A stretch of 12,048 bases of DNA, taken from positions 1 through 12,048 of the forward strand of contig JAUWXH010000014.1 of the NCBI GenBank assembly GCA_030616465.1, read 5' to 3'. The notes below the pieces were generated by a model. That model made no database searches. It saw nothing but the letters and a program-made list of their open reading frames with translations, and had not been told where the DNA came from. The position numbers were made by a program, and so were the translations under genes. The DNA comes from Planctomycetota bacterium (GTDB lineage: Bacteria > Planctomycetota > Phycisphaerae > UBA1845 > Fen-1342). Shown piece after piece: positions 1 through 12,048 of this stretch (the first letter of the stretch is position 1; each line of letters begins with the position of its first letter).

Positions 1-60
1 GTCGCGACAGAGCCCGGCGACTACATTCGGGCTGTCGGGGGATACATGCCCGCGCCTTCG

Positions 61-100
61 GCTTGGGCATGCCACACTTGGCTTCGGCATACCACACTTG
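61..100. repeat. 20-bp tandem direct repeat, two copies
   Basis: Positions 61-80 and 81-100 are head-to-tail copies of a 20-base unit that match at 18 of 20 positions (differences at the 5th and 11th bases). The unit ends in CCACACTTG and contains GGCAT. It lies in the non-coding left edge of the window, just beyond the remnant of a helix-turn-helix reading frame. Two copies alone could come from slippage. They could also be part of a dispersed intergenic repeat family, which this window cannot show. Confidence 0.8.
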
Positions 101-178
101 AGCGCTGCCTGTTCTCGGCGGGGTCACGTCCAGCGCGCGGCAGAGTTTCTCGATGTTCGCGAGCGTCGGGCCGAGTCC
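92..178 (-). pseudogene. Possible remnant of an XRE-family helix-turn-helix gene
   Basis: Read on the minus strand directly after the LysM stop codon and in the same frame, this stretch gives GLGPTLANIEKLCRALDVTPP and then unrelated sequence. The segment PTLANIEKLCRALDVTP matches the last two helices of Cro/CI (XRE) HTH domains, where S-x-x-TL-x-x-I-x-x-ALxV-xP is usual. There is no start codon, no earlier part of the domain (the LysM gene occupies that space) and no normal C-terminus; the frame runs into the 20-bp tandem repeat. It is best read as a decayed fragment left after a rearrangement at the LysM gene end. It could be chance similarity, since only about 18 residues match. Confidence 0.4.
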
Positions 179-1042
179 TTACTCTTCGTTTTTCTTGGCG
201 GGCTTTTTCTCGAGCGGGGGCAGGCGCAGTTCCGTGCCCGGGATCAGCTCATCGGGCGATTCGAGCTTGTCACGGTTCAGCTCGAAAATCTCCAGGTAGC
301 GCGACTCGTCCTTCAGCACGTTCCGCGCGATCGCAATCAGCGTGTCGCCCTCCGCCACCACGTAGGTCGCCCGATCGGCGTCCTGCTTCTCCGTCGCGCG
401 TTTGACCTCGCCGGCCACAACCTGCTCCTTCGGCGGCAGCACGATTACCTGCCCCGCCTGCAAGCTCAACAGGTCCACGTCCGGATTGGCGGCCTGGATC
501 GCGGTCCAATAGCGGTCCTCGCCGTAGTGCTCGCGCGCGATGGCGATGAACGTATCGCCAAGCTGGATCGTGTAGGTCGAGCCCACCGCGGGTCTCTTCA
601 GGCCCTCCAACCGCGAGGCCACATCCTCCTTCGGGGAGGTCGGCAGCCGCTGCGCCTCGTCCGGCACAGGCGGCTCGGTCGCCGGCGCGCTTGTGGCCAC
701 CAGGCCGCCGGTCTCTAACGCCGCGAGGGGTTCTTCCGTCCCCGGCCCGGTCACCACCTCCCCAGGTTTCGACAGCTCCGGACCGGGCTGGATGGGCTCG
801 TAGGAGAGCACGGAGGGCTCTTCGGTTCGCCCTGGCGTGGTCGGTTCCTGCCGCGCCAAGGTCGTCTCGCCCGGGACGACTCGTTCGTCGCCGGCCAGCG
901 CAACGTCTTCCCCGGACGTTTGTCCCGGAGGCAGGTCGAAGGGGATCTTGTCGGCCTTCTCGGAGCTGTTCACGGCCCAGATGATGGCCCCGACGAAGAC
1001 GACCAGCCCGACGGCGATTGCTGCTTTGATCTCGGTACGCAT
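179..1042 (-). CDS. Membrane-anchored protein with two LysM domains
   Basis: 287 aa. The protein begins MRTEIKAAIA with a hydrophobic helix at about residues 7-24, which fits an N-terminal membrane anchor. A Pro/Glu/Thr-rich linker (about 35-150) follows, then two LysM domains: about 156-204 (YTIQLGDTFIAIA...) and about 226-276 (YVVAEGDTLIAIA...). Both have the GDT-x-x-x-IA core and the closing G-x-x-x-x-LPP strand. The C-terminus is Lys-rich (KKPAKKNEE). LysM modules bind N-acetylglucosamine polymers, so a peptidoglycan-associated envelope role is likely; no catalytic domain is visible. The ATG at 1042 was chosen because GGGAGG lies 7-8 nt upstream and the membrane segment follows at once; an in-frame ATG at 1096 would add 18 unlikely residues and would overlap the promoter-proximal leader. 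The gene lies 99 nt downstream of secDF on the same strand and also has its own promoter candidate. Confidence 0.85.
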   Translation of the reverse strand: MRTEIKAAIAVGLVVFVGAIIWAVNSSEKADKIPFDLPPGQTSGEDVALAGDERVVPGETTLARQEPTTPGRTEEPSVLSYEPIQPGPELSKPGEVVTGPGTEEPLAALETGGLVATSAPATEPPVPDEAQRLPTSPKEDVASRLEGLKRPAVGSTYTIQLGDTFIAIAREHYGEDRYWTAIQAANPDVDLLSLQAGQVIVLPPKEQVVAGEVKRATEKQDADRATYVVAEGDTLIAIARNVLKDESRYLEIFELNRDKLESPDELIPGTELRLPPLEKKPAKKNEE

Positions 1043-1105
1043 GATTCGCCCTCCCCGCAGGAGTTCCCCGTGTCCGCGGCACGCGACGCAGACCACGGCG
1101 TGGTT

Positions 1106-1114
1106 ATTATACCA
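1106..1114 (-). promoter_or_regulatory. Extended -10 promoter candidate for the LysM gene
   Basis: On the minus strand these bases read TGGTATAAT, an exact extended -10 element (TGn followed by consensus TATAAT), in otherwise GC-rich DNA. No good -35 box stands 16-18 bp upstream, which extended -10 promoters can tolerate. A start site near 1099 would leave a leader of about 57 nt before the ATG at 1042. It would allow the LysM gene to be expressed separately from secDF. Confidence 0.5.
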
Positions 1115-1141
1115 AATGCGGCGGGCGACAACAGTCGGTAA

Positions 1142-4100
1142 TCAGGCCACCGCCGCTTTCGGGCGTCTGCGCTCTAAACGGAGCATCAGTAGGGGGGCTG
1201 CCACGGCGATCGACGAGTACGTCCCGGTGATCACGCCGATCATCATACAGTAATTGAACCCGCGGATGCTGCTCCCGCCGAAGACGTACATCACCGCCAG
1301 CACGACGAAGGTGGTGAAGCTGGTGAGCAAGGTCCGCGCGATGCACTGGTTGATGCTCTGGTTGATGACCTCGGGGGTGACCATCCCGAGCCGCCCGCGT
1401 GTCTCGCGGATGCGGTCGAAGATGACGATCGTGTCGTTGATCGAGTATCCGATGATGGTCAGGAACGCCGCCACGATGGTCATGTTGATCTTGAAATCGT
1501 CGATCAGCAGGGCCTGGCCGATGGGATGTTGCGTGCCGCCCAGCCAGCCGCTGAAGCCGACGAAGGCCAGGGCGATGAGCACGTCGTGGACCAGGGCGCA
1601 GACGCCGGCGATGCCGTACATCGCCCGCCCGAAACGCAGCCACAGATACGCGATGATCATCGCCCACGACAACAGCAGAGCCAGCAAGGCGCGCGTCTGC
1701 GACTGAGCGGCGATCTGCGGCTTGAACTGCGAGACCTTGCGCAGCGTCTGCTCGGTGTCGAAGGTGGCGGTGGCCAGTTGCAACTCCTTCTGGGCCAGCT
1801 CCGTGAACCATCGATCCGGGTCCTCGGTGTAGGGGTAGTACCGGTCGGCCACCACGATCACCACGCTCGAGTAGGTTGCTTCGCCCTCGGCCTGGCCGGC
1901 GGGGATCAGGCCAATCACTTCGAACTCCCGCCAGGGCAGGTCCTGGTAATCGGGCTGCAAGCGCATGTTCCGCAGGCGTTTGGTGAGGGCGGGAATCGTC
2001 TGCGGCGGATCGAGCTGGTCGAAGCGCAGCGCGGCGCCCTCATAGTAGTCGGTGACGTCGCGCGCGGCTTCAGCGGGCAAATTGGGGACCACCGCTTCCA
2101 GGCGCCGGTTCGTGATTGGGTAGGGCCGGTCATCGTTGCCGCGGAACGTATAGGAGATTCTGGGCTGACGCTTGAGGTTTTCGCCCAGGGCCCGCTCCAG
2201 CGCGTGCTGCACCAGGCCCTTGTTGGTCTCGGTGGTGGTGACGTTCCAGACCAGGCCCTTTTCGGCCTCACCGCCCGGCTCGATAACCGCTCCGACGCTG
2301 GCCCGGCCGATGTTCTGACCCGCGAGGACCCCGTCGTCGGACCAACCGTGAACGAAGTCGCGAAGCTGCTCGGCCGTGACACCCTCTTGGACACGCACGC
2401 TGATCTCGTTCGGCCCCCCGTGGGCGTCGACGCCGCCGCGTTGCAGCAGCTTGGCATCCTCCAGCGGCTCGGTCAGCAGGGCGGCGAGCCGGCCGGCACT
2501 CACCTCCGGCACCATCACGCGAAAGAGGCCGGGCTCGGTCACCACCGGTTCGACCGTCGCCTGGGCGAGGCGCTCGCCGGTAGCGGAGATCGCCTGCCCG
2601 ACCAGCTCAAGCTGCTCGGTCAGGTCCACGTCGGTCATGCCGGCTTGCGTCAGTTCCACTTCGGCGTTCACGCCGCCCAGGAATTCGACGTCCAGCACGT
2701 CCTTGCGGCTGCGCGTCAGCAGCAGGCTCATGCCGCTTACGACGACGATGAGCGAGATGGGCACGAAGAACTTGCGCTTGGCGTACCAATTGATCTTGGG
2801 CACGCCGATCAGTTGCAGCATCTTGATGTCGCTGATCAGGTGGTATTTGACCAGCAAGCTGAAGACGGTGCGCGTAACGAACAGGGCGGTGAACAGGCTC
2901 CACACGATGCCCCAGCCGAGCGTGAGGCCGAAGCCCTTGATCTCTTCGCTGCCCACGTAGTAGATAATCACGCAGATGAGCAGGGTGGTGACGTTGGCGT
3001 CGATGATCGTGGAGAAGGCCTTGTCGTAGCCGTTCTTGATGACCATCCGCAGCGAGGAGCCGCGGGCCTTCTCCTCGCGCATGCGCTCGAAGATCAGCAC
3101 GTTGGCATCGACGGTCATGCCGATGGTGAGGATCACGCCGGCGATCCCGGCCAGGGTGAAGCGCGCCCCCAACATGGCCATGGCCGCGAGCACCAGCATT
3201 ATGTTCATGAGCAGGGCCACGTTGGCGATGGCCCCGTTGACCAGGTAGTAAGCGATCATCAGCACGGCGACGACGATTACGCCCGCCACGCCGGCCATGA
3301 AGGCCTTGCGCAGGTTGGTCTCGCCCAGAGACGAGCCGATGGTACGCTCGCTGATGGGGGTATCCTTGAGCCGGGCGGGCAAGGCTCCGGCCTGCATGGT
3401 CTGAACCAGGTAGGTGACTTTCTCTCTGCTGAAGTCACCGGTGATCTCGCCGCGCTGGCCGATGCGGCTTCGGATGTTGGGTGCCGAGTAGGCCACGTCG
3501 TCCACGAGAATACAGAGCGGTTTGTCGATGTTGTTCCGCGTCAGCTCCTGGAAGATATCGCCGCCGACCACGTCCAGCGTGAAGTCCACGCAGAGGCGTC
3601 CGTTCTGGTCGCGGTCGGAGTAGGCCCGCTTGAGCTGCCATCTGCGCGGGTTGCTGGCCAGCAGCCCGTCTTGCTCGCCGAGCTTGGCCAGGACGTACCA
3701 CTGCCCGCGGTAGGTGTCCGCGACCATGGCGCTGAATGACGTTTTGGGATCCTTGGCTCTTTCCTTCAGTTGAGCCTGAGAATCGAGGTTGAAGAAGGCC
3801 AGCGGGTTGTCGATCAGGAACCAACCTTCCGCGTCCCCGGGTCGCGGCGGGCGTTGCCCGTGCTCATGGAGCTCGTCGCGGTATTGGTCGTACTTGGTGA
3901 TGTTTTCGACGCTGGGCTCGGCGAGGATGCGGAATTCGAGCACGCCGGCCCCTTTCAGCAATCGCCGCAGGTCCGCCGGCCCATCCAGAAAGCCGCGCTT
4001 GCCGCGCCAGGCGTCAAACTTCTCTACGACCGTGCTAATCTGGCCCTCCAATTGCGGGTATTGCTTGCGCAAATCCTTGAGAGCGGTGTCGCGAATGGGT

Positions 4101-4861
4101 GACTTCTGGTCCAGTTCCAGGGTTTCCTGGAAACGGTTCGGGTCGATGTTTGTCTCCAGCACGGCCTCGACGGCATCGCGCCAGAGGTCCTCGGCATCGA
4201 GGGCCCGTAGATCCAGCTCCTCCTGTGTAACCACTTCGGCCGGCTCCGTGGTCGGAGCGCTGGCCGGGGCCGACGTCGGCTCGGTTGTTGGTGCTGCCGT
4301 CGGCTCCGTCGTCGGTACCGCCGCGGGTTGCGTCGCGGGCGGCCCGGCTTGCTGCGCCTTCAGCGCCACCACGTACTCGTCCCGCCGCTGGGCCGCTTCC
4401 TGAAGGAGTCGTTCGCGCTCGGCCGACCCGTCGGCCAATTCCTTCAGCTCCCGCTCCCGGTTCTCTGGGGTCTCGCGCAGAGCCTGCTCGAGCGCGCTGC
4501 GGCGAATGTTCGCGCCGGCAAACAGGACCTCGCGCGCGTTGACGTAGTCATCGCGGAACTTCGCGGCGTCCTTGGGCGGCAGCGGCATCGTCACTCCGAG
4601 GCGGTTACGCCCGTGCACGCGCCACCGCAAGTCGAACACCCCGTCGGGATCGACGCGCTTCTGGAGCAGGCGCTTCATGTCTTCCGCGAGGTTGGGGTAG
4701 CGTTCCCCTTCCTCCTCCTGGATCTCGAAGACCAGCTCGACGCCCCCGGCAATGTCCAGCCCGGGCCGTAGCCTGTCCTCTAGCGGATACAACAACCAGG
4801 CCGCCGCCACCAACACCACGCCGATCAACACCAGACGCTGTGTCAGATTCTTCTCCCACAT
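1142..4861 (-). CDS. secDF: Fused protein translocase subunit SecDF
   Basis: 1239 aa. SecDF uses the proton motive force to pull proteins across the inner membrane after SecA. The SecD half has an N-terminal helix (about 8-25), the D1 motif GLDIAGGVELVFEI (34-47), a periplasmic domain, and a helix bundle with GMTVDANVLIFERMREE ending near 597 and GFGLTLGWGIVWSLFTALF from 643. The SecF half has a helix (about 698-715), FLGGV (727-731), GYSINDTIVIFDRIRET near 1138-1154 and SINQCIARTLLTS near 1169-1181. By motif, Asp585, Asp1143 and Arg1176 match the proton-path residues Asp340, Asp637 and Arg671 of Thermus SecDF. The protein is far longer than usual fused SecDF (about 735-740 aa) because both periplasmic domains are enlarged. 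The ATG at 4861 was preferred to those at 4867 and 4948: GAGG stands 8 nt before it but only 2 nt before 4867. No yajC is adjacent; a 160-aa secreted protein gene lies 108 nt upstream. Confidence 0.97.
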   Translation of the reverse strand: MWEKNLTQRLVLIGVVLVAAAWLLYPLEDRLRPGLDIAGGVELVFEIQEEEGERYPNLAEDMKRLLQKRVDPDGVFDLRWRVHGRNRLGVTMPLPPKDAAKFRDDYVNAREVLFAGANIRRSALEQALRETPENRERELKELADGSAERERLLQEAAQRRDEYVVALKAQQAGPPATQPAAVPTTEPTAAPTTEPTSAPASAPTTEPAEVVTQEELDLRALDAEDLWRDAVEAVLETNIDPNRFQETLELDQKSPIRDTALKDLRKQYPQLEGQISTVVEKFDAWRGKRGFLDGPADLRRLLKGAGVLEFRILAEPSVENITKYDQYRDELHEHGQRPPRPGDAEGWFLIDNPLAFFNLDSQAQLKERAKDPKTSFSAMVADTYRGQWYVLAKLGEQDGLLASNPRRWQLKRAYSDRDQNGRLCVDFTLDVVGGDIFQELTRNNIDKPLCILVDDVAYSAPNIRSRIGQRGEITGDFSREKVTYLVQTMQAGALPARLKDTPISERTIGSSLGETNLRKAFMAGVAGVIVVAVLMIAYYLVNGAIANVALLMNIMLVLAAMAMLGARFTLAGIAGVILTIGMTVDANVLIFERMREEKARGSSLRMVIKNGYDKAFSTIIDANVTTLLICVIIYYVGSEEIKGFGLTLGWGIVWSLFTALFVTRTVFSLLVKYHLISDIKMLQLIGVPKINWYAKRKFFVPISLIVVVSGMSLLLTRSRKDVLDVEFLGGVNAEVELTQAGMTDVDLTEQLELVGQAISATGERLAQATVEPVVTEPGLFRVMVPEVSAGRLAALLTEPLEDAKLLQRGGVDAHGGPNEISVRVQEGVTAEQLRDFVHGWSDDGVLAGQNIGRASVGAVIEPGGEAEKGLVWNVTTTETNKGLVQHALERALGENLKRQPRISYTFRGNDDRPYPITNRRLEAVVPNLPAEAARDVTDYYEGAALRFDQLDPPQTIPALTKRLRNMRLQPDYQDLPWREFEVIGLIPAGQAEGEATYSSVVIVVADRYYPYTEDPDRWFTELAQKELQLATATFDTEQTLRKVSQFKPQIAAQSQTRALLALLLSWAMIIAYLWLRFGRAMYGIAGVCALVHDVLIALAFVGFSGWLGGTQHPIGQALLIDDFKINMTIVAAFLTIIGYSINDTIVIFDRIRETRGRLGMVTPEVINQSINQCIARTLLTSFTTFVVLAVMYVFGGSSIRGFNYCMMIGVITGTYSSIAVAAPLLMLRLERRRPKAAVA
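4238..4327 (-). repeat. Pro/Thr/Glu/Ala-rich repeat linker inside the SecD periplasmic domain
   Basis: SecDF residues about 179-208 consist of repeated TTEPT/SAP units (for example TTEPTAAPTTEPTSAP), encoded by an internally repetitive GC-rich stretch. A charged, probably coiled-coil segment precedes it (about 129-171: RERELKEL, ERERLLQEAAQRRDEY). Together they look like a flexible insertion that separates two parts of the first periplasmic domain that are contiguous in ordinary SecD. Confidence 0.75.
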
Positions 4862-4867
4862 GATCAT

Positions 4868-4875
4868 TCCCTCTC
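4868..4875 (-). promoter_or_regulatory. secDF ribosome binding site, deciding the start
   Basis: The minus strand reads GAGAGGGA immediately before ATG ATC ATG TGG. The GAGG core is 8 nt from the second ATG (4861) but only 2 nt from the first (4867). The protein is therefore most likely initiated at MWEKNLTQR. An upstream in-frame ATG at 4948 lies in the leader hairpin and has no such site. Confidence 0.7.
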
Positions 4876-4909
4876 GGGTAAGATTGAGTTTTCTGCAAGA
4901 ACCACCGGC

Positions 4910-4924
4910 GAGCGCGCCGCGCTC
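4910..4924 (-). promoter_or_regulatory. Second hairpin in the secDF leader
   Basis: GAGCGC and GCGCTC (6-bp perfect stem, 3-nt loop) in the transcript, 24 nt downstream of the first hairpin and 35 nt upstream of the secDF ribosome binding site. GC-rich stems arise easily in such DNA. It is listed because two perfect short-loop hairpins fall within one 108-nt leader. Confidence 0.4.
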
Positions 4925-4947
4925 GGCACGCCGAACCGTCGCGTACA

Positions 4948-4964
4948 CGGGGCCTGCGGCCCCG
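4948..4964 (-). promoter_or_regulatory. Strong GC hairpin directly after the 160-aa gene
   Basis: The transcript can form CGGGGCC-GCA-GGCCCCG, a perfect 7-bp all-GC stem with a 3-nt loop, starting 5 nt past the stop codon of the 160-aa gene. No U-tract follows, so it is not a canonical intrinsic terminator. It could be an mRNA-stability or translational-control element between the small gene and secDF, because a ribosome stalled at the end of the small gene would cover or melt it. Confidence 0.55.
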
Positions 4965-4969
4965 GGCGG

Positions 4970-5452
4970 CTACGCGACCGGCGGCCCGGTTGGCAAAATG
5001 CTGGTGAGAAAGCTGGCTTGGTGGGCCAGTAAGACCTGGCCGCCGCCCGCCACACTGCCGATCGCCCCCGACGAACGCGGCGGCATTTTCCACGGGAACG
5101 GCCGAGCGGCGTCAAGGTCCCAGACTCCGGCGTCGGTTCCCTCATAGTCACGACGTCCGCTCACGGTCGAGCGCACGAACTTGCCGCGCAGCGGTTGTCG
5201 AGGCGACGAGGTCAGCGCCCGGGCCGGCCAGCGGGGCGCCACCACGTCCGGGAGCGTGCTGGCCAGGCTGGGCGGCGGGACCTCGCGCGAGTCCGAATCG
5301 TCGCCCGACTCGGGCTGCTCGGGGCGGGCCGCGGCGTGCTCGGCTTGGACGGGTACTTCCTCCAGCCAGGGGCAGACCTTCTCTTGGGTCGCCGCCAGCA
5401 GCAACACCGCCAACCCGCACGTCAGCCTGACCACACCTTCGGCACGCGTCAT
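4970..5452 (-). CDS. Secreted 160-aa protein of unknown function upstream of secDF
   Basis: 160 aa; family not recognised. The sequence starts MTRAEGVVRLTCGLAVLLLAATQ: a short basic region, a hydrophobic core (about 10-21) and a plausible signal-peptide cleavage region near 21-25. A Pro/Glu/Asp/Ser-rich stretch (about 33-70) follows, then a basic segment (about 74-101), Gly-rich residues 129-138 and a C-terminus HQASFLTSILPTGPPVA. Third codon positions are strongly G/C, as in the neighbouring genes, which supports real coding. The ATG at 5452 is preferred because GAGG (5461-5464) stands 8 nt upstream; ATG 5458 is too close to it. The gene is first in the minus-strand cluster, with a promoter just before it, and lies 108 nt upstream of secDF. 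This position, size and signal sequence resemble regulatory arrest peptides such as VemP, but no established stalling motif is present. It could also be an ordinary exported protein. Confidence 0.62.
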   Translation of the reverse strand: MTRAEGVVRLTCGLAVLLLAATQEKVCPWLEEVPVQAEHAAARPEQPESGDDSDSREVPPPSLASTLPDVVAPRWPARALTSSPRQPLRGKFVRSTVSGRRDYEGTDAGVWDLDAARPFPWKMPPRSSGAIGSVAGGGQVLLAHQASFLTSILPTGPPVA

Positions 5453-5467
5453 GCACATAGCCTCGGC

Positions 5468-5496
5468 ATTGTAGGGTCCCGGCGTCGAGTTGCCAA
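5468..5496 (-). promoter_or_regulatory. Sigma70-like promoter for the secDF cluster
   Basis: On the minus strand TTGGCA (5491-5496, 5 of 6 to consensus) and TACAAT (5468-5473, 5 of 6) are separated by exactly 17 bp. The start site would fall near 5461, leaving a very short leader before the ATG at 5452. It would drive the 160-aa gene and probably secDF and the LysM gene behind it. The VOC gene is transcribed the other way from the same intergenic region. Confidence 0.55.
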
Positions 5497-5582
5497 CGCC
5501 CACCGCTTGCGTCCAGAGGCTGAGGCGGTCAAACTCTGGCCGCGTCGGAACGGAGAATACCTTGACCCTCAGGAGAGCTGCC

Positions 5583-5939
5583 ATGGCGAGTCCTCTTTGC
5601 CACTTCGAGTTCCAGTCAGACGACCCCGAGAAGTGCCAACAGTTCTACGGCAGCGTTCTCGGCTGGGAGTTCGACAGCCAGTCGATGGGCGACTACACGC
5701 TGATCAAGACCGGGAGCGAGCCCGGCGGCGGCCTCATGAAACGCCCGCCGCAAGTCCCGGCCCCGTGCCTGACCGTCTACTTCCTGGTGGACGACATCGC
5801 GGCCACGCTCAACAAGGCCCAGCAAGCCGGTGGAAAGGTGCTCGTCCCCGAGACGCCGATTCCCAACGTCGGCGCGTTCGCCGTGCTGAGCGATCCGGAA
5901 GGGCTCCACTTCGGCATCTTCAAGAGCCAACAAGGCTAA
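5583..5939 (+). CDS. VOC (glyoxalase/bleomycin-resistance fold) family protein
   Basis: 118 aa, the usual size of a single-chain VOC protein made of two beta-alpha-beta-beta-beta units. Unit one: CHFEFQSDDPEKCQQFYGSVLGWEF (about 6-30) with the typical DPEK-x-x-x-FY-x-x-LGW pattern, followed by a GGGLMKRP turn (48-55). Unit two: LTVYFLVDDIAATLNKAQQAGGKVL (63-87) and FAVLSDPEGLHFGIF (99-113) with the family DPEG turn. The closing strand reads HFGIF and lacks the glutamate that often binds metal there, so substrate and metal dependence cannot be assigned. It is probably a soluble cytoplasmic dimer. AGGAG (5571-5575) lies 7 nt before the ATG. The gene stands alone between divergent and convergent neighbours. 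A 147-nt gap separates it from the end of the peptidase gene; no clear terminator was seen there. Confidence 0.9.
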   Translation: MASPLCHFEFQSDDPEKCQQFYGSVLGWEFDSQSMGDYTLIKTGSEPGGGLMKRPPQVPAPCLTVYFLVDDIAATLNKAQQAGGKVLVPETPIPNVGAFAVLSDPEGLHFGIFKSQQG

Positions 5940-6086
5940 CGCCGCCCGGTGCACCGGTAACGACTCGGTCCTCGATCGGGTGGTCCGCATCTTCAGAGGT
6001 GGGCGACGCGAGCACTCTGCCGATTCGTGTCCCCCCGGCCAAAACCGTGGGCTGTCCACCCATCGGCACGTTGGCGCCGGGGCGGA

Positions 6087-7142
6087 TTACGGCGTGCAAC
6101 CCCAGTCGGCGAGCAGGATACCGAGGTCCGATTGGTCGGTGTCGTCGTCGCCGTCAAGGTCGCCGACGCAGTCGGACGTGCAGCCCCAGTCGGTCAGAAG
6201 GATGCCCAGGTCGGCCTGGTCAGTGTCGCCGTCGCCGTCAACGTCACCGACGCAGGGTCCGACGATGACACCGGCGTAGTCAGCGAGGAATCCGGCGACC
6301 GAGCGCGCGCAGTCCGCCGCGAGCTCGTAGCTGATGTAGGCGGGCGTATCGACCGAGTCGAGCTGCGTATGGTAGTGGGGGTTCGAGCGGCGGTACTGCT
6401 CGGCGAGCTGGCAAGCCTGGAAGCCGGCCCACTCGAAGGGGGCATGGTCGCTGCCGTCGCTCGGACCGCTGACAACCACGCTCAGGCCGTTACCGTATTC
6501 GTTGATCGCCGCGGCCAGGGCGTTCTTCAGCGGTAACGAGGCAGTGCGCCCGAGGATCTCGGCGCTGTACACACCGTAGTCCCACGCGATCATGTCGGAC
6601 TGGATCATGCCCCGGATGTCATCGTCGAGATGGTCGTCCACGTAGATCTGGCTACCGATGAGCCCCAATTCCTCCATGTCGAACGCGATGTACTTGATGG
6701 TGTATTCGGTTTCATATTGCGAAAGAACCCGGGCGATCTCCAGCAGCCCGGCCACGCCCGACGCGTCATCGTCGGCTCCCGGATTGTCCACCGAGTCATA
6801 ATGGGCACCGAGGATGTACTGCGCGTCCGCATAGACGGTTCCCACTTGCGTGGCGACGACGTTCCACCCCGGCTGACCCCAGTGCTCAAACTCATCCAAC
6901 TCGACCTGCAGGCCGAAACCTTGAAAGATCTCCACGATGTTGTCGCGGGCCAGGTTGTGCTCGGCGCCGCTGATGCCCCGGCTGTGGCCGTAGTGCGTGT
7001 ACAGCTCCTCGTCCAGATAGTACTGGTAGCTCACCACATCGATTTGGTCCGCAATCTGCTGCCCGATGTCGCTGGCGAAAGCGACCGGCCCACCGGCCAT
7101 CAGCGCTGCCACCAGAAGAAAGCCGACTACGCGCCTCGTCAT
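6087..7142 (-). CDS. Secreted M28-family zinc peptidase with C-terminal dockerin-like tandem
   Basis: 351 aa. An N-terminal signal peptide (about 1-24, ending VAFAS) is followed by an M28 aminopeptidase-like domain (about 30-292) and a tail of two dockerin-like modules (299-321 and 327-349). All expected residues of the co-catalytic zinc site are present by motif: His114 (GAHYDS), Asp125 (PGADDDASG), Glu157 as general base and Glu158 (DMEELG), Asp183 (QSDM) and His258 (PHYHT). It is therefore predicted to be an active metallo-exopeptidase acting outside the cytoplasmic membrane; substrate unknown. There is no PA domain insert and no recognisable pro-region. The tail has Asp-rich loops (DVDGDGDTDQADL, DLDGDDDTDQSDL) each followed by GILLxDWGC, which suggests calcium binding. 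GGAGG lies 5 nt before the ATG. The nearest gene upstream on the same strand shares the same tail, but each seems to have its own promoter region. Confidence 0.93.
   Translation of the reverse strand: MTRRVVGFLLVAALMAGGPVAFASDIGQQIADQIDVVSYQYYLDEELYTHYGHSRGISGAEHNLARDNIVEIFQGFGLQVELDEFEHWGQPGWNVVATQVGTVYADAQYILGAHYDSVDNPGADDDASGVAGLLEIARVLSQYETEYTIKYIAFDMEELGLIGSQIYVDDHLDDDIRGMIQSDMIAWDYGVYSAEILGRTASLPLKNALAAAINEYGNGLSVVVSGPSDGSDHAPFEWAGFQACQLAEQYRRSNPHYHTQLDSVDTPAYISYELAADCARSVAGFLADYAGVIVGPCVGDVDGDGDTDQADLGILLTDWGCTSDCVGDLDGDDDTDQSDLGILLADWGCTP
6096..6248 (-). repeat. Two tandem dockerin-like modules in the peptidase gene
   Basis: Modules at 6180-6248 and 6096-6164 encode GDVDGDGDTDQADLGILLTD and GDLDGDDDTDQSDLGILLAD, each followed by WGC and joined by a short TSDCV linker. 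The same arrangement with a PSDCV linker occurs in the next gene at 7321-7473. DNA is also conserved across the linker: the 20 bases at 6159-6178 recur at 7384-7403 with few or no changes. Confidence 0.85.
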
Positions 7143-7190
7143 GACCGCCTCCTAACGCTTGATGTTGGCCTGCCGGATCAGGCCACTACC

Positions 7191-7199
7191 ATCATAGCA
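7191..7199 (-). promoter_or_regulatory. Extended -10 promoter candidate for the peptidase gene
   Basis: The minus strand reads TGCTATGAT, an extended -10 (TGn) followed by TATGAT (5 of 6 to consensus). The -35 region 17 bp upstream is weak (GTGAAT). A start near 7184 would give a leader of about 42 nt before the ATG at 7142. It lies in the 166-nt gap between the peptidase and FG-GAP genes, so the two need not be one operon. Confidence 0.45.
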
Positions 7200-7308
7200 C
7201 ATCTTGCCCGCCGATTCACCCCTTTGTTTCGCTCACTCCCGGAACTCACACACAGTTGGCGCTGCTTGCAACGCGATGTCGGGCCTCGCGGCCACCCCGC
7301 GTCTACCC

Positions 7309-8724
7309 TTAGGAGCGTGTGTTGCCCCAGTTGTCCAGGAGGATGGCGAGGTCGTCCTGGTCGGTGTCGTCGTCACCGTCGATGTCGCCGACGCAGTCGG
7401 ACGGGCAACCCCAGTCGGCCAGGAGAATACCGAGATCCGGCTGACCCACGGCGCCGTCGCAGTCGAGATCGCCGGGGATCGGATCGAGGTCGAAGAAGTA
7501 CGCCGCGCCGGCGTTGTCGCCGTCGTAGTCGTGGCGCGCGCCGACGAGGGCCGTCCTGCCGTAGACGGCCACGGCGCAACCAAATTCGTCCTGCTCCTCA
7601 CCATCAGAGGCGAGGAGCTTGGCTTCCTCCACCCAGCGCGAGCTGTCGCGCCGGAAGACGTACGCCGAACCGGAATACGGACCGTTGTCGTCGTCGCGCC
7701 AAGCGCCGATCACGGCCAGGTTGGGCGGGTCGCCGGAGAGGGCCAGGGCTAGGCCGAAGGTGTCATCCATTTCGCCGTCGAAGGCCAACAGTTTGGCCTG
7801 CTCGATCCAGCCCTGCCCATCGTATTGAAACACGTAGGCCGCGCCGGAGAACCAACCGTTCTCGTCGTCGCCGTGTGCGCCGACCAACACGGTGCTTCCG
7901 GAGATGGCCACGGCTGCACCGAAGACCTGGTACGGGGCGGGGTCGGCAGGCGTCAGCTTCGCTTCCTCGATCCACGTTGAGCCGTCCGCGCGGAACACAT
8001 AGGCCGAACCGGACTCGGCACCGTTGTCATCGTCCCGCCACGCTCCGATCACGACCCACTGCAGCAGGCCACTGGAAACAGTCACGGCCAGACCAAAGCC
8101 GTCCCCGGGCCCGCCGTCGAATGGCACGAGCTTCGCTTCTTCGACCCAGGCCGATCCGTCGCGCCGGAAGATGTATGCCGAGCCGGAGCTGGGGCCGTGG
8201 TCGTCGTCCAGCCACGCACCCACCACGGCCGTATCGCCTGCGAGCGCGACCGCCCTGCCAAAACGGTCCCGGGGAGAGCCGTCGGACGCCACCAGCTTGG
8301 CCTTCTCGATCCAGCGCTGTCCGTCATAGCCGAAGACGTACACCGCACCGGGCTTGGGTGGGTCCGCTTGGGAATGCCCCGGCGCTCCGATCAGCGCGAT
8401 GTCTCCGGAAAGGGCTACCGACGCACCGAACTCTTCCCACTCGTCCCCGTCAGCGGCCGTCAGCCGGGCTTCCCGAACCCATTCCGGCCCATCGCTGCGG
8501 AAGACGTACGCCGCGCCGGACGCCCTCCCGCGCCACGCGTCGTGGGGCACCCCGACGAGCGCCGCCTCACCGGCGATCGCCACGCTCTCGCCGAAGAACG
8601 CCAAGCCGTTCGCGTCGCCGGGGTGGACCTTGCCTAATTCACACTGGGCCAACGCGGGCGACTGGGTCAGCCATAGCACCAACACGCCCGTCGCCAAGGC
8701 CAAACCGAATGTGCGCCTGTTCAT
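7309..8724 (-). CDS. Secreted FG-GAP repeat beta-propeller protein with dockerin-like tail
   Basis: 471 aa. A signal peptide (about 1-27, ending SPALAQ) is followed by seven repeats that begin with FG at residues 44, 99, 155, 210, 268, 323 and 381, spaced 55-58 residues apart; the last is shorter. Each has FGxxVAxSGD, then (V/I)GA, an Asp-rich loop such as WRDDDNG, then SGSAYVFRxDG and W(V/I)EEAKL. Seven such units fit an integrin-alpha-like seven-bladed propeller with calcium in the DDDNG loops. Two dockerin-like modules close the protein (418-440 and 446-468). No enzyme motif is visible; a binding or structural role at the cell surface is the usual guess for this family. The ATG at 8724 is preferred to 8766: AGGAG is 6 nt upstream and the signal peptide starts there. 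Confidence 0.9.
   Translation of the reverse strand: MNRRTFGLALATGVLVLWLTQSPALAQCELGKVHPGDANGLAFFGESVAIAGEAALVGVPHDAWRGRASGAAYVFRSDGPEWVREARLTAADGDEWEEFGASVALSGDIALIGAPGHSQADPPKPGAVYVFGYDGQRWIEKAKLVASDGSPRDRFGRAVALAGDTAVVGAWLDDDHGPSSGSAYIFRRDGSAWVEEAKLVPFDGGPGDGFGLAVTVSSGLLQWVVIGAWRDDDNGAESGSAYVFRADGSTWIEEAKLTPADPAPYQVFGAAVAISGSTVLVGAHGDDENGWFSGAAYVFQYDGQGWIEQAKLLAFDGEMDDTFGLALALSGDPPNLAVIGAWRDDDNGPYSGSAYVFRRDSSRWVEEAKLLASDGEEQDEFGCAVAVYGRTALVGARHDYDGDNAGAAYFFDLDPIPGDLDCDGAVGQPDLGILLADWGCPSDCVGDIDGDDDTDQDDLAILLDNWGNTRS
7321..7473 (-). repeat. Two tandem dockerin-like modules in the FG-GAP gene
   Basis: Module one (7405-7473) encodes GDLDCDGAVGQPDLGILLAD and WGC; its Asp-rich loop is degenerate, with Cys, Ala and Gly at places that hold Gly or Asp in the other modules. 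Module two (7321-7389) encodes GDIDGDDDTDQDDLAILLDN and WG and keeps the full loop. Order, linker (PSDCV) and spacing match the tail of the neighbouring peptidase. Confidence 0.83.
7477..8595 (-). repeat. Seven tandem FG-GAP repeat units
   Basis: About 165-174 bp per unit, corresponding to FG-GAP residues 44-416. Units four and six are the most alike (both have IGAWRDDDNG and a 58-residue length with extra residues before the VIGA strand), which hints at duplication within the array. The last unit lacks the EEAKL strand, as expected if the N-terminal segment completes the propeller. Confidence 0.8.
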
Positions 8725-8832
8725 GACATGCTCCTGTACTGCGAAGCCAAATCCCTTCATTCCCATCGGTGGCCTTATGGGTACTGGTTAACCTTTTTTC
8801 GCGCAACCGTAGCGTTCACGTGCGCTTCACGC

Positions 8833-8858
8833 TTGTCGGCCCGCCCACCTACCGACAA
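8833..8858. promoter_or_regulatory. Operator-like inverted repeat in the divergent intergenic region
   Basis: TTGTCGG (8833-8839) and CCGACAA (8852-8858) are perfect 7-bp inverted repeats with a 12-bp spacer, so the half-site centres are 19 bp apart, close to two helical turns. The region 8725-8999 separates the divergent FG-GAP and acyltransferase genes. A weak plus-strand promoter candidate overlaps the right arm (CCGACA at 8852-8857, 17 bp, TAGGAT at 8875-8880). Two TTCACG copies 11 bp apart (8815-8820 and 8826-8831) lie just upstream. A regulator binding here could control one or both genes. Confidence 0.4.
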
Positions 8859-8986
8859 CAGCGTGGGCATCGGATAGGATGGCGGGCCGGTGGCTCATTG
8901 GACGGGCATCGGGGCCAAGACTGCCCGGCCGCAGTGCGCACGACCCCGGCAGCGAGCGGGTTGCGGCGTTATCTATGCAGACTGAT

Positions 8987-8991
8987 GGAGG
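8987..8991 (+). promoter_or_regulatory. Ribosome binding site fixing a GTG start
   Basis: GGAGG stands 8 nt before the in-frame GTG at 9000. The only nearby ATG (8985) overlaps this site and has no purine-rich sequence ahead of it, so GTG is the likelier start. Confidence 0.7.
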
Positions 8992-8999
8992 AAATACGA

Positions 9000-9827
9000 G
9001 TGAATTCTTCCGAAGCAACCGCAGATCAGGCGAGTGCCGCGTCGGGCAGCGAGTCGGGGGCCAGACCCATCGATCAGCGTAATGCCCTGCAGGGGTTCCT
9101 CGTTCTGGACGTTATCGCACGGCTGTTCATCTGGTGCACGGCCTTCGTCCTGGCGACTGCGGCTTTCTCCGCCCTGGGAGCGTGGCCCCAGCAGGGCCTG
9201 CTCGACGCCAACCTGAAATCAGCCGTGCAGTGGGGCTGGCGCCTGGCACTGTGGATTATCGTGTTTAACGTCATCTACGTTGCCGAGCTGGTCGTGCTGC
9301 GGTTGCCGATCCCAACGCCCCGGGAAGGGCGCTACGCGACGAACGTGCGCTGGCCGGACCGGCAGGTGCTGTGGTCCTGCCTGGTGGCCCTGCTCAGCAA
9401 AGCGCGTTTGGAGGCCCCGTTTCCGGGCTTTCTCGTGTTCCATCTGGCCAATCTGCCGCCGCTGCGCTGGCTGATGGGGCCCGTTTTCGGGCCGAAGTCG
9501 CGCTCCTGTTACGTCACCGACCCGCAGATCATCGACCCGCATCTGGTCAGCGTGGGACGCAACGTCGTGATCGGCTTCAACGCTACCGTGGCCGGCCATT
9601 ACCAGGAGCGCGACGCGGTCGTGTTCAAACGCACGATCATCGAGGACGACGTGATCGTCGGCGGACACGTGGGGATCGCCGGCGGCGCCCACATCAAGCC
9701 CGGAGCGGTGATCGGTGCCGGCTCGGTCGTTCTGCCGAACACCGTCGTCGGGGCCAATGAATTCTGGTGGGGTGTGCCGGCCCGGCGCGTGCGCGACCTG
9801 GGGCCGCTCGAACAACCGGCCGTCTAG
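9000..9827 (+). CDS. Membrane-anchored left-handed beta-helix (hexapeptide) acyltransferase
   Basis: 275 aa from a GTG start. A polar N-terminus (1-30) is followed by two hydrophobic segments (about 33-56 and 80-102), a cytoplasmic-looking connector (103-165) and a C-terminal hexapeptide-repeat domain (about 172-262). The repeats show the [LIV]-G-x-x-x-x rhythm: ISVGRNVVIGFNATVAGH-like coils, IIEDDVIVGGHVGIAGGA, HIKPGAVIGAGSVVLPNTVV. The ending EFWWGVPARRVRD is the usual G-x-PA-[KR]-x-[IV] close of LbH acetyltransferases. His200 or His223 could be catalytic; neither can be assigned from sequence alone. Likely role: O-acylation of an envelope glycan or lipid-linked sugar at the inner face of the membrane. 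It lies 18 nt upstream of a GT-C-like membrane protein gene, probably co-transcribed. Start at ATG 8985 would add five residues but has no ribosome binding site. Confidence 0.85.
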   Translation: MNSSEATADQASAASGSESGARPIDQRNALQGFLVLDVIARLFIWCTAFVLATAAFSALGAWPQQGLLDANLKSAVQWGWRLALWIIVFNVIYVAELVVLRLPIPTPREGRYATNVRWPDRQVLWSCLVALLSKARLEAPFPGFLVFHLANLPPLRWLMGPVFGPKSRSCYVTDPQIIDPHLVSVGRNVVIGFNATVAGHYQERDAVVFKRTIIEDDVIVGGHVGIAGGAHIKPGAVIGAGSVVLPNTVVGANEFWWGVPARRVRDLGPLEQPAV

Positions 9828-9845
9828 CGAAAGGGCCACTCCCCG

Positions 9846-11687
9846 ATGACGTCGTCACCCGCGCCCAGCAGCAACGCCGAGCAACCTGGACCCCTGCCCA
9901 AACGCCCGCGTTCCGGGCGCCGGACCGCACTGCTGGCGACACTGCTCGTCCTGGCCGGCGTCGCCAACCATGCCCAGTCGCTTCGAGTGGGATTCGCGTA
10001 CGACGACTACCTCCACCAATACGTCCTGCGTGGTCTGGCCGAAGGCAGCTCGCTGCGGCCCTGGAACCTGTACGACTTCAGCGCTGATCTCCGCCCCGGA
10101 GAATGGCCCACCTGGCAGCGGATCTTCTTCTGGTGGACGGATCTGGATTGGAAGGCGCGTTTCTTCCGGCCGGTCAGCAGCCTGAGTATCTGGCTGGATT
10201 TCGCGGTCTACGGCGATTGGGCAGCGGGCTACCACGTAACAAGCCTGGTACTGTTCGCGGTGCTGCTCGCGCTGACGCTCAAGCTGTATCGCGACCTCGG
10301 CGCGTCGCGGGTCGCCGCCCTGTGGGCCCTGGCTTTCCTGGCCTTGGACGACACCCATAGCCTGGTCGTCGGCTGGATCGCCAACCGCAACACGCTTCTG
10401 GCAACCCTCTTCACCGTCGCCACCGTCCTCTGCGTGCACCATCACCGCCGAAGCGGAAACCGCGGCTATCTGCTGCTGGCGGCAGTCAGCTTCCTGCTGG
10501 CAATAGGGTCCAAAGAATCGGGCTTCATGGCCCTGCCGCTCGTCGCGCTGTACCTGCTGGCGTTCGGGCGCCCGTCCGCGGGCGAAGCGCTGAGTCACGC
10601 CGCCAAACGCCTGTTCCGGTCAGGACCGCTGTGGATCCTCGCCTTGCTGGCCGCAGGCTATGCGTCGTTTTACTTCGCCAGCGGCTACGGCGTCCGATCG
10701 CTGGGATATCCGACGCCGTGGGGAACACCCGGCCAGTACCTGACGCAGCTCGCCGTCCTGCTGCCGGTCGGGTTGCTGAGCCTACTGTTCGGCTTCGTCT
10801 CGGATATGCTCCTCTTGCAGCCGCACTGGACCGCGCCCGCCGTCGCGCTGGGCGTAGTGCTCCCGGCGGCGGCCGGGGTCGTCTTGCTGCGGGTCGTCGG
10901 CTGGACGCGGCTTTCCGCCTTCGCGCTTGGTTGGACCGTTCTGGCCCTACTGCCCCAGGCTGGGGTGAACCTGTCCGATCGCCTGTTGATGAGCGCCGCA
11001 GTAGGGACGGCCCTGCTGGCGGGGCTGTTCCTCGAACGCCTCCGGCCGGTGCGCGAACAGTTCGCTGCCCGACGCTACGCCCGCCTCGCGCTGGCAGGCC
11101 TGCTGCTGCTGACCGGCCCCATCGCCGGCGTGCCGATGGCGGCGCTGCGGCACGCAGCCCTGACAGACATGGTACGCGCCGACCGGCACGCCATCCTGAA
11201 CGCCGACATCGACCGCACGATCGCCGCGCCCCGGTCCGTCTTTCTGCTGAACAGCCCCTCGGGCCTGCTCGCGCTCGAGTTCCTGCCCACCTGGAGCGTC
11301 ACCTATCAGCGCACGGATATCTACTACTATGCGCTGCAAATGGGACGCCGACCGTTGACGTGGCAACGCGTGGACGAGCGAACCATGATCCTGACCAGCA
11401 ACGCCGGCCCGTTTCTCGATCACATTTACGAGCGACTTCTGCGGACCAGTTGGGAGCCGCCGTCACCAGGCACCGCGTACGAAACGCCGGAGTTCACCGC
11501 GACCGTACTGGCCGTCGAGCGCGGTGGCCTCCGCAGCGTCCAATTCAGATTCAACCGGAGTCTCGACGACCCTTCGTATCAGTTCCTCGCTTGGCAGGAC
11601 GGGCGTCTGGTGCGGATCGCTGCACCGCCGGTCGGCCAGACCATTGAGCTCGCGGCCGTCCCACCGCCCACCCCGTTCACGCCCTAG
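9846..11687 (+). CDS. Polytopic membrane protein, GT-C / PMT-like glycosyltransferase candidate
   Basis: 613 aa. After a Pro/Ser-rich start, hydrophobic segments occur at about 27-43, 130-146, 156-168, 183-197, 207-221, 226-240, 260-277, 298-318, 329-349, 356-370, 380-396 and 410-428, and then a soluble C-terminal region of about 180 residues. The first loop has FAYDDYLHQYV (50-60), which resembles the acidic catalytic motif after the first helix in GT-C enzymes, and FFRPVSSLSIWLDFAVYG (106-123) followed by GYHVTSLVLF (128-137), a pattern common in dolichyl/polyprenyl-phosphate-sugar mannosyltransferase-like proteins. ANRNTLLATL (179-188) and GSKESGF (221-227) are also typical. It probably transfers a sugar from a polyprenyl carrier outside the membrane; donor and acceptor unknown. 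The 18-nt gap and weak own ribosome site (AAAGGG) suggest coupling to the acyltransferase gene. Confidence 0.75.
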   Translation: MTSSPAPSSNAEQPGPLPKRPRSGRRTALLATLLVLAGVANHAQSLRVGFAYDDYLHQYVLRGLAEGSSLRPWNLYDFSADLRPGEWPTWQRIFFWWTDLDWKARFFRPVSSLSIWLDFAVYGDWAAGYHVTSLVLFAVLLALTLKLYRDLGASRVAALWALAFLALDDTHSLVVGWIANRNTLLATLFTVATVLCVHHHRRSGNRGYLLLAAVSFLLAIGSKESGFMALPLVALYLLAFGRPSAGEALSHAAKRLFRSGPLWILALLAAGYASFYFASGYGVRSLGYPTPWGTPGQYLTQLAVLLPVGLLSLLFGFVSDMLLLQPHWTAPAVALGVVLPAAAGVVLLRVVGWTRLSAFALGWTVLALLPQAGVNLSDRLLMSAAVGTALLAGLFLERLRPVREQFAARRYARLALAGLLLLTGPIAGVPMAALRHAALTDMVRADRHAILNADIDRTIAAPRSVFLLNSPSGLLALEFLPTWSVTYQRTDIYYYALQMGRRPLTWQRVDERTMILTSNAGPFLDHIYERLLRTSWEPPSPGTAYETPEFTATVLAVERGGLRSVQFRFNRSLDDPSYQFLAWQDGRLVRIAAPPVGQTIELAAVPPPTPFTP

Positions 11688-11700
11688 CGCGATCCGCACG

Positions 11701-11734
11701 GCGGGTCGTACGGTCCGCTGTATGGACCACCCGC
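11701..11734 (+). terminator. Hairpin after the GT-C-like gene, possible terminator
   Basis: GCGGGT (11701-11706) pairs with ACCCGC (11729-11734), and inside it GGTCC (11712-11716) pairs with GGACC (11724-11728) across a 7-nt loop; five unpaired bases sit on the left arm. It starts 13 nt after the stop codon. No T-tract follows, so intrinsic termination is uncertain. Confidence 0.35.
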
Positions 11735-11852
11735 GCTGCGCTTGTGTCGGACCGGCGCATACCCCACCATGTTTCGACGACCGGACGCAGACAATCGGCG
11801 AGTGATCAACACGCTCCGCGTAGCGGACACCAGGGTCCGGATGGAGTAAACG

Positions 11853-12048
11853 ATGGAACAACCAATACACCCTGCACAGCGGACCCCCCACGGCCGCTCA
11901 GCGCCCGCCGTCGAGCAGGAACCGTTCTTCCTGGAGCAGATCGGCAAGATGAAGCAGCGGCTGGAGGTCGTGCGCGACTTGCCGGGGCTGGAGCGTTTTC
12001 ACGAGAGCGCCGAGCTGCCGGCCGCGTTCTTTGAGCACCTCAACGCCG
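11853..12048 (+). CDS. N-terminal part of an unidentified protein, cut by the window edge
   Basis: 65 codons are present and the frame is still open at the right end. The protein starts MEQPIHPAQRTPHG; GGAG (11843-11846) lies 6 nt upstream, a good ribosome binding site. After a polar, Pro-containing start (1-22) comes a probably helical, charged stretch: EPFFLEQIGKMKQRLEVVRD (23-42) and then GLERFHESAELPAAFFEHLN. No signal peptide or membrane segment is visible. The family cannot be recognised from this part. The 165-nt gap before it (11688-11852) holds the hairpin at 11701-11734, a small stem TCCGC-GTA-GCGGA (11815-11827) and CCGGAC/GTCCGG arms (11781-11786, 11835-11840) around that stem. 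A link to the two preceding genes is possible but not shown. Confidence 0.7.
   Translation, partial: MEQPIHPAQRTPHGRSAPAVEQEPFFLEQIGKMKQRLEVVRDLPGLERFHESAELPAAFFEHLNA

Follow-up and report, generated by a model that had tools for sequence, protein, structure and literature searches.

A probable Sec-monitoring arrest peptide encoded directly upstream of secDF in planctomycetes of the order UBA1845

The 160-aa reading frame that stands directly upstream of secDF in a planctomycete genome most likely encodes a Sec-monitoring arrest peptide, of the kind whose stalling sequence resembles RAPP, that controls secDF expression; the probability of this reading is put at about 0.8. As such, the peptide would probably serve the cell as an internal gauge of its export capacity. 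The frame lies in a stretch of 12,048 nt, referred to here as the window (assembly GCA_030616465.1, contig JAUWXH010000014.1, positions 1-12,048, forward strand), from a Planctomycetota bacterium with the GTDB lineage Bacteria; Planctomycetota; Phycisphaerae; UBA1845; Fen-1342. Arrest peptides of this kind are already known (Fujiwara 2024, PMC10987492), and the planctomycete secDF form is a variant, part of which may be found in the supplement of that paper. Along the minus strand of the window, a promoter-like site is followed by the 160-aa frame, a 108-nt gap and secDF, with the following features:

5468..5496, minus strand: sigma-70-type promoter-like site, TTGGCA-17 nt-TACAAT, 10/12 matches
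4970..5452, minus strand: putative arrest-peptide gene, 160 aa, ATG at 5452 and stop at 4970, supported by homologues and dN/dS
5357..5428, minus strand: residues 9-32, a hydrophobic stretch followed by QEKVCPWL, likely export signal
5222..5266, minus strand: residues 63-77, central block LPDxxxPRWP, conserved within the window's family
4979..4993, minus strand: residues 154-158, PTGPP, putative arrest motif
4984-4982, minus strand: first Pro of GPP, putative P site by analogy with RAPP
4981-4979, minus strand: second Pro of GPP, putative A site by analogy with RAPP
4948..4964, minus strand: predicted 7-bp all-GC hairpin, beginning 5 nt past the peptide-gene stop
4912..4931, minus strand: second predicted hairpin, within the 108-nt gap (centroid structure)
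4869..4875, minus strand: GAGAGGG, likely Shine-Dalgarno sequence of secDF, 5' of the secDF ATG
1142..4861, minus strand: secDF, fused SecD-SecF (Pfam SecD_SecF_C twice and SecDF_P1_head), ATG at 4861

A first-pass annotation of this DNA had described a promoter, a 160-aa frame with a signal peptide and the ending SILPTGPPVA, two hairpins and secDF, and these were confirmed in the sequence, the signal peptide as a hydrophobic N-terminus. The peptide has a long variable middle between its two ends, and a second ATG at 5458 would give an alternative product of 162 aa. For the promoter-like site, the 10/12 matches stand against a mean of 0.0 in 50 shuffles. The site nearly abuts the ATG codons (window 5450-5473); judged from this spacing, the predicted start falls a few nt 5' of the first ATG, and the mRNA may thus have almost no leader. 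The stretch from the peptide stop to secDF yielded no further promoter-like site, which suggests that the two genes are probably co-transcribed. The peptide itself matches nothing in Pfam up to E 0.1 or in NCBIfam up to E 0.01. Elsewhere in the window, a divergent glyoxalase-like gene occupies 5583-5939, and by eye a similar frame stands beside the peptide gene at locus L005. An M28 peptidase (6087-7142) and an FG-GAP protein (7309-8766) both end in repeats of the DxDxDxDxxDLxILLxxWG type, which we presume to be akin to dockerin or EF-hand repeats.

Comparison among relatives supports the frame as coding, as had been proposed. Between loci L011 and L012, dN/dS is 0.27, with 7 differences at first, 9 at second and 23 at third codon positions, while four more distant pairs (dS 1.1 to 1.9) give values of 0.26-0.47. 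Homologues of the peptide were sought in 61 genomes consisting of the window's own, 26 of the same family and 34 of the same order. Sixteen places, the window's own included, were matched with E up to 5.9e-5 and one more (L018) at 0.0042, and all 17 lie directly 5' of secDF on the same strand. L017, matched at 0.0025, is different: the frame there is Lys/Pro-rich and unrelated, and its 3.3-kb locus has no secDF match. A protein database search, which scored only the 8000 candidates sharing most words and in which some proteins overlap the genome set, returned 35 homologues. GPP is present in all 35 (34 TGPP, one NGPP); none has a precomputed Pfam domain, and some are titled 'hypothetical protein'. 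Four named relatives of the SecDF protein are MAGs assigned to Phycisphaerae (2), Phycisphaerales (1) and Planctomycetota (1).

Conservation along the peptide is concentrated in a few places. Column identity, taken as the mean pairwise value over the 28 rows left by an 80% identity filter, is highest in PTGPP at 0.89 and reaches 0.54 for residues 9-32, 0.56 for residues 63-77 and 0.36 for residues 146-153; residues 1-8, 33-62, 78-145 and 159-160 show 0.18-0.21. TGPP occupies the motif position in 35 of the 36 alignment rows and NGPP in the other. The first-pass annotation had expected conservation to be limited to the signal peptide and the C-terminus, and both ends are indeed conserved, but the LPDxxxPRWP block in the centre equals the signal in conservation. 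The sequence outcomes that would have spoken against its reading, namely conservation along the whole length, homologues away from secDF or loss of the GPP, did not occur in what was searched. The conserved elements are also evenly spaced. From the end of the hydrophobic stretch to the first Pro, the mean distance is 132.8 residues (sd 10.9) for 60 proteins of the window's family and the database, a set that counts some proteins twice. For the remaining families of the order the mean is 116.5 residues (n=47). A pattern for the central block was found in 51 of 60 scanned proteins, and in 48 of these it precedes the first Pro of GPP by 81-90 residues.

The same arrangement recurs through most of the order as read. 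A secDF match is present in 103 of 114 genomes, and 77 loci were read: the full 26 of the window's family (17 entered by peptide similarity and nine by secDF alone) and 51 of 77 others, picked by secDF match alone. With L056 dropped (cut by a contig end), 76 loci were usable. To be counted, an ORF needed a length of 45 codons or more, a stop no further than 450 nt from secDF, and X-[A/G]-P-P with no more than 14 residues after it; where a second, less hydrophobic frame also fitted (L010, L035 and L050), the more hydrophobic one was kept, and at L038, which has masked bases, the secDF start was set by hand. An upstream same-strand ORF with this ending was found at 72 of the 76 loci (25/26 in the window's family and 47/50 elsewhere). 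Control frames of 70 or more codons rarely end this way: 7 of 537 did so among the other frames of these regions, and 2 of 308 in 60 regions of other orders. The commonest motif is HAPP (32), followed by TGPP (19), HGPP (4), NGPP and QAPP (3 each), then CGPP, IGPP, LAPP and NAPP (2 each) and LGPP, VAPP and TAPP (1 each). All 19 TGPP loci belong to the window's family. The four loci lacking the motif are L016, which ends in PNPPPAG and was scored as a miss by the scan, and L067, L070 and L087, where no such ORF was detected before secDF. These last three, two of which (L067 and L070) are from genus g38, are possibly losses.

At the other end of the peptide, a hydrophobic N-terminus (score 1.7 or more) is found at 68 of the 72 loci, as judged by a lenient measure that uses hydrophobicity alone, allows any start codon of the frame and has no control. 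Of the other four, L036 (1.5) and L088 (1.3) score below this value and L057 and L090 are cut at the N-terminus by a contig end. By eye, alignments of families f4, f7, f8 and f1 have little in common beyond the hydrophobic start and the X-[A/G]-P-P ending, and each of these families also has internal blocks of its own. A central W-D/N-x-x-x-R/K stretch (ADVWDASVSR, VFLWDRLVK), seen by eye in f4 and some f8 members, is maybe a counterpart of LPDxxxPRWP.

Since GPP is a di-proline step, the peptide might stall and yet sense something other than export, such as proline charging or EF-P activity, and a missing EF-P has been named as a possible cause of differences among di-proline peptides (PMC10987492). 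This is very unlikely given the hydrophobic N-terminus at 68 of 72 loci, the VemP-like distance to the motif in the window's family and a downstream gene that encodes an export motor. In addition, the residue X before [A/G]-P-P is mostly His or Thr (56/72; H 36, T 20, N 5, Q 3, others 8; Thr in the window), a preference that sensing of Pro-Pro alone would not require.

The RNA was considered both as the conserved entity itself and as the link between a stall and secDF. In favour of an ending kept as an mRNA element, such as an attenuator or riboregulator, instead of as a peptide, positions 4850-5000 of the window fold somewhat better than shuffles (z -1.77, 10/200 as good). In the predicted centroid structure, the GPP codons (4987-4980) pair with 4906-4899 and the codons that follow (4978-4971) with 4945-4938. 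The intergenic stretches of 72 loci likewise show a small excess of folding over shuffles (mean z -0.37, p 0.01). Against such an element, 25 loci in the window's family write [A/G]-P-P in 16 different codon sets (one of the sets for APP), which means that the residues, and not the bases, are kept. Nothing in window 4800-5600 reaches the gathering score of an Rfam family, and masking of the ribosome site is not shared among the loci. It is therefore hardly credible that the ending acts as RNA alone.

With the arrest-peptide reading, the first-pass annotation had also proposed that the hairpins respond to a stalled ribosome, and this part found no support. The 45 nt after the stop, which include the first hairpin, show no excess stability over dinucleotide shuffles in the window (z -0.56, p 0.24), and their mean z across 72 loci (-0.11) is not beyond chance. 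By eye, L002 and L005 also have post-stop hairpins, composed of different letters. Masking of the secDF ribosome site was assessed at 72 loci, with 60 shuffles each, by comparing the predicted unpairedness of positions -16 to +3 between mRNA carrying a ribosome at GPP and free mRNA. The gain was 0.004 compared with 0.009 in the shuffles (Wilcoxon p 0.33), and masking was rejected. Relief was likewise not detected in the window's family (n=25, p 0.81) or in the window itself (-0.02). Five loci (L006, L031, L035, L059 and L074) gain access at a shuffle p of 0.02 or less and four (L063, L075, L079 and L082) lose it as strongly (p of 0.98 or more), which leaves no net effect. In the window, a stalled ribosome would open both predicted stems, and the secDF ribosome site lies outside them. 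What stands of the earlier proposal is its peptide side: homologues that adjoin secDF, PTGPP as the best-conserved stretch and GPP in every database homologue.

The peptide gene occupies a place that mostly belongs to yajC in the other orders of its class. For the class, 397 genomes were searched with a SecD-start profile, 47 without a match were left out and 60 regions of other orders were chosen across families; for the phylum, 85 of 118 genomes had no match and were left out, and 20 regions were read (19 from other classes and one from the same class). The regions extend about 0.9 kb 5' of secDF outside the order and up to 1.1 kb within it, some of them shortened by contig ends. A yajC-like match is found 5' of secDF in 57 of the 60 regions from the class and 14 of the 20 from the phylum, and in 1 of 77 in the window's order. 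In the single exception, L055 (genome G028), yajC comes first, then the peptide gene and then secDF, an order suggesting that the peptide gene originated or was inserted at this point and that yajC moved away later.

This placement could mean that the product is an ordinary small exported partner of SecDF, for example a substitute for YajC or an assembly partner, whose C-terminal TGPP serves for binding and not for stalling. The conserved central block of the window's family and the internal blocks of f4 and f7 would fit such a partner. Such a role is nevertheless unlikely. By Pfam search, 103 of the order's 114 genomes, the window's own among them (C373), have a yajC somewhere, which in G028 lies beside secDF; most of the protein is unconserved and has no known domain; and what the families share, by eye, is little more than a hydrophobic start and X-[A/G]-P-P, the known layout of arrest peptides.

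In all 12 near-complete genomes checked, the strong SecD or SecF matches (E 1e-16 or better) are without exception within a single fused gene, and weaker matches (E 1.6e-9 or worse) lie in long frames elsewhere, so the peptide gene precedes the only SecDF found there. The title of PMC10987492 describes Sec-monitoring arrest peptides as patchy in distribution, and VemP, ApdA, ApdP and the Alteromonas peptide of that paper stand before a second or presumed second SecDF. One design at 72 of 76 loci, before the sole SecDF in 12 genomes and in the place of yajC, suggests constant feedback rather than an emergency back-up.

In the arrest-peptide reading, the signal sequence would guide the growing polypeptide to SecYEG. 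Once the P site is occupied by the first Pro of T-G-P-P and the A site by the second, a register taken from RAPP peptides (PMC12992588), peptide-bond formation would be blocked by the RAPP mechanism. During fast export, pulling on the chain would free the stall. When export is slow, the stall would persist and expression of the co-transcribed secDF would rise until export capacity is restored. Blocked Rho-dependent termination is one possibility for how the stall could be coupled to secDF.

Several observations count against this reading. RNA folding lends no support to the coupling, the conserved central block means that conservation is not confined to the ends, and four of 76 loci are without the motif. 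In the L011/L012 pair, dN/dS is not lower in the last 20 codons (0.41 versus 0.28 in the middle), where two changes, one of them synonymous, make too small a sample to show more. Finally, as the first-pass annotation had pointed out, the Arg of RAPP is missing: the window has Thr, and none of the 72 loci has Arg at this position. In ApdA and ApdP, the Ala carbonyl of R-A-P holds the A-site Pro from attack and the Arg docks on 23S rRNA (PMC10951233), and Arg is irreplaceable in ApcA, ApdA and ApdP (PMC12992588). HAPP, however, is an experimentally tested arrest motif 5' of secDF in Lachnospirales (arrest in Bs PURE was impaired by H129A), and the R125A form of an Enterobacterales peptide stalled in Bs PURE and not in Ec PURE (PMC10987492). 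The activity of HAPP and the stalling of R125A in Bs PURE indicate that Arg is not always needed, and its absence from all 72 loci makes the role of the Arg contact directly testable. A more specific version of the arrest-peptide reading, which is tentative and on balance doubtful, is that a single-copy SecDF is controlled by an arrest peptide without Arg, His or Thr before [A/G]-P-P being enough, and that LPDxxxPRWP, about 85 residues from the stall, is a handle gripped by SecDF. In the window's family this block would sit where the chain leaves SecYEG, and the peptide would gauge SecDF itself and not general export.

Comparable frames were seen in other planctomycete lineages. Signal-type ORFs before secDF end in RAVRGPPTL at L147 (G157), after yajC, and in PVRGPPAA at L176 (G492), with a yajC-like match in the same region; these RGPP ORFs are possibly independent arrest peptides. 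In another class, ORFs before secDF at L167 (G441) and L172 (G456) end in LPPP stretches, again with a yajC-like match in the region; LPPP has been published 5' of secA (PMC10987492).

Among known systems, SecM shares with the window's peptide the role of an exported monitor and a Gly-Pro at the arrest site. SecM regulates secA through FxxxxWIxxxxGIRAGP, whereas the window gene lies 5' of secDF and ends in SILPTGPPVA, with P-T-G-P and no Arg. Many homologues do read R-T-G-P: in alignment A3 the residue before [T/N]GPP is Arg in 22 of 36 rows, Pro in 12 and Ile in 2. A SecM register, with Gly in the P site, is possible but is not preferred because the window has Pro before TGPP. VemP of Vibrio is likewise an exported monitor 5' of secDF, and the median signal-to-stall distance of its homologues, 133 residues (PMC10987492), is close to the mean of the window's family. 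Its arrest sequence, HRIXGWKETNAMYVXLNXX, bears no resemblance to TGPP and is not found in the window's peptide, and VemP regulates a second SecDF. The main text of PMC10987492 names Planctomycetota once, for uA_LPPP of three planctomycete orders. That peptide also has C-terminal prolines, but it lies 5' of secA and carries LPPP within its last 15 residues, unlike the [A/G]-P-P before secDF described here. ApdA and ApdP (PMC7897499, PMC10951233, PMC12992588) are closer, as secDF uORFs with a signal and a Pro-Pro core after Ala or Gly. Theirs is RAPP, or RGPP in some homologues, with an essential Arg and a presumed secondary SecDF2 downstream; in the planctomycete peptides [A/G]-P-P is kept and the Arg is not (0/72).

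The closest likeness is to the RQH secDF uORFs of PMC10987492, which have RAPP-like ends and for which HAPP and TGPP were among the search motifs; the group uDF_RQH_WSZJ01 carries RAPP. TGPP occurs twice in the main text, as a search motif only. No TGPP peptide is named in the main-text parts covered, and the supplement may list this group; no other report of the planctomycete peptide was among the matches listed in literature searches. As in the RQH group, the planctomycete gene is a short unannotated uORF directly 5' of secDF on the same strand, with an N-terminal signal or TM segment (68/72, by lenient hydrophobicity only), a conserved C-terminal sequence (GPP in 35/35 returned proteins, the motif at 72/76 loci) and a spacer longer than 30 residues (means of 132.8, n=60, and 116.5, n=47). 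At the first position of the motif, where that group has R, Q or H, the window has T, and 36 of the 72 loci of the order have H, three Q and none R. The likeness is strongest to the HAPP peptide of uDF_RQH_Lachnospirales, a small uORF with an N-terminal signal, a long spacer and X-[A/G]-P-P conserved near the C-terminus, HAPP also being the commonest motif in the window's order. Unlike the RQH group, the planctomycete form is present at most secDF loci of its order, in the place of yajC and before the sole SecDF detected in the genomes checked; the peptides of the window's family also carry an evenly spaced central block.
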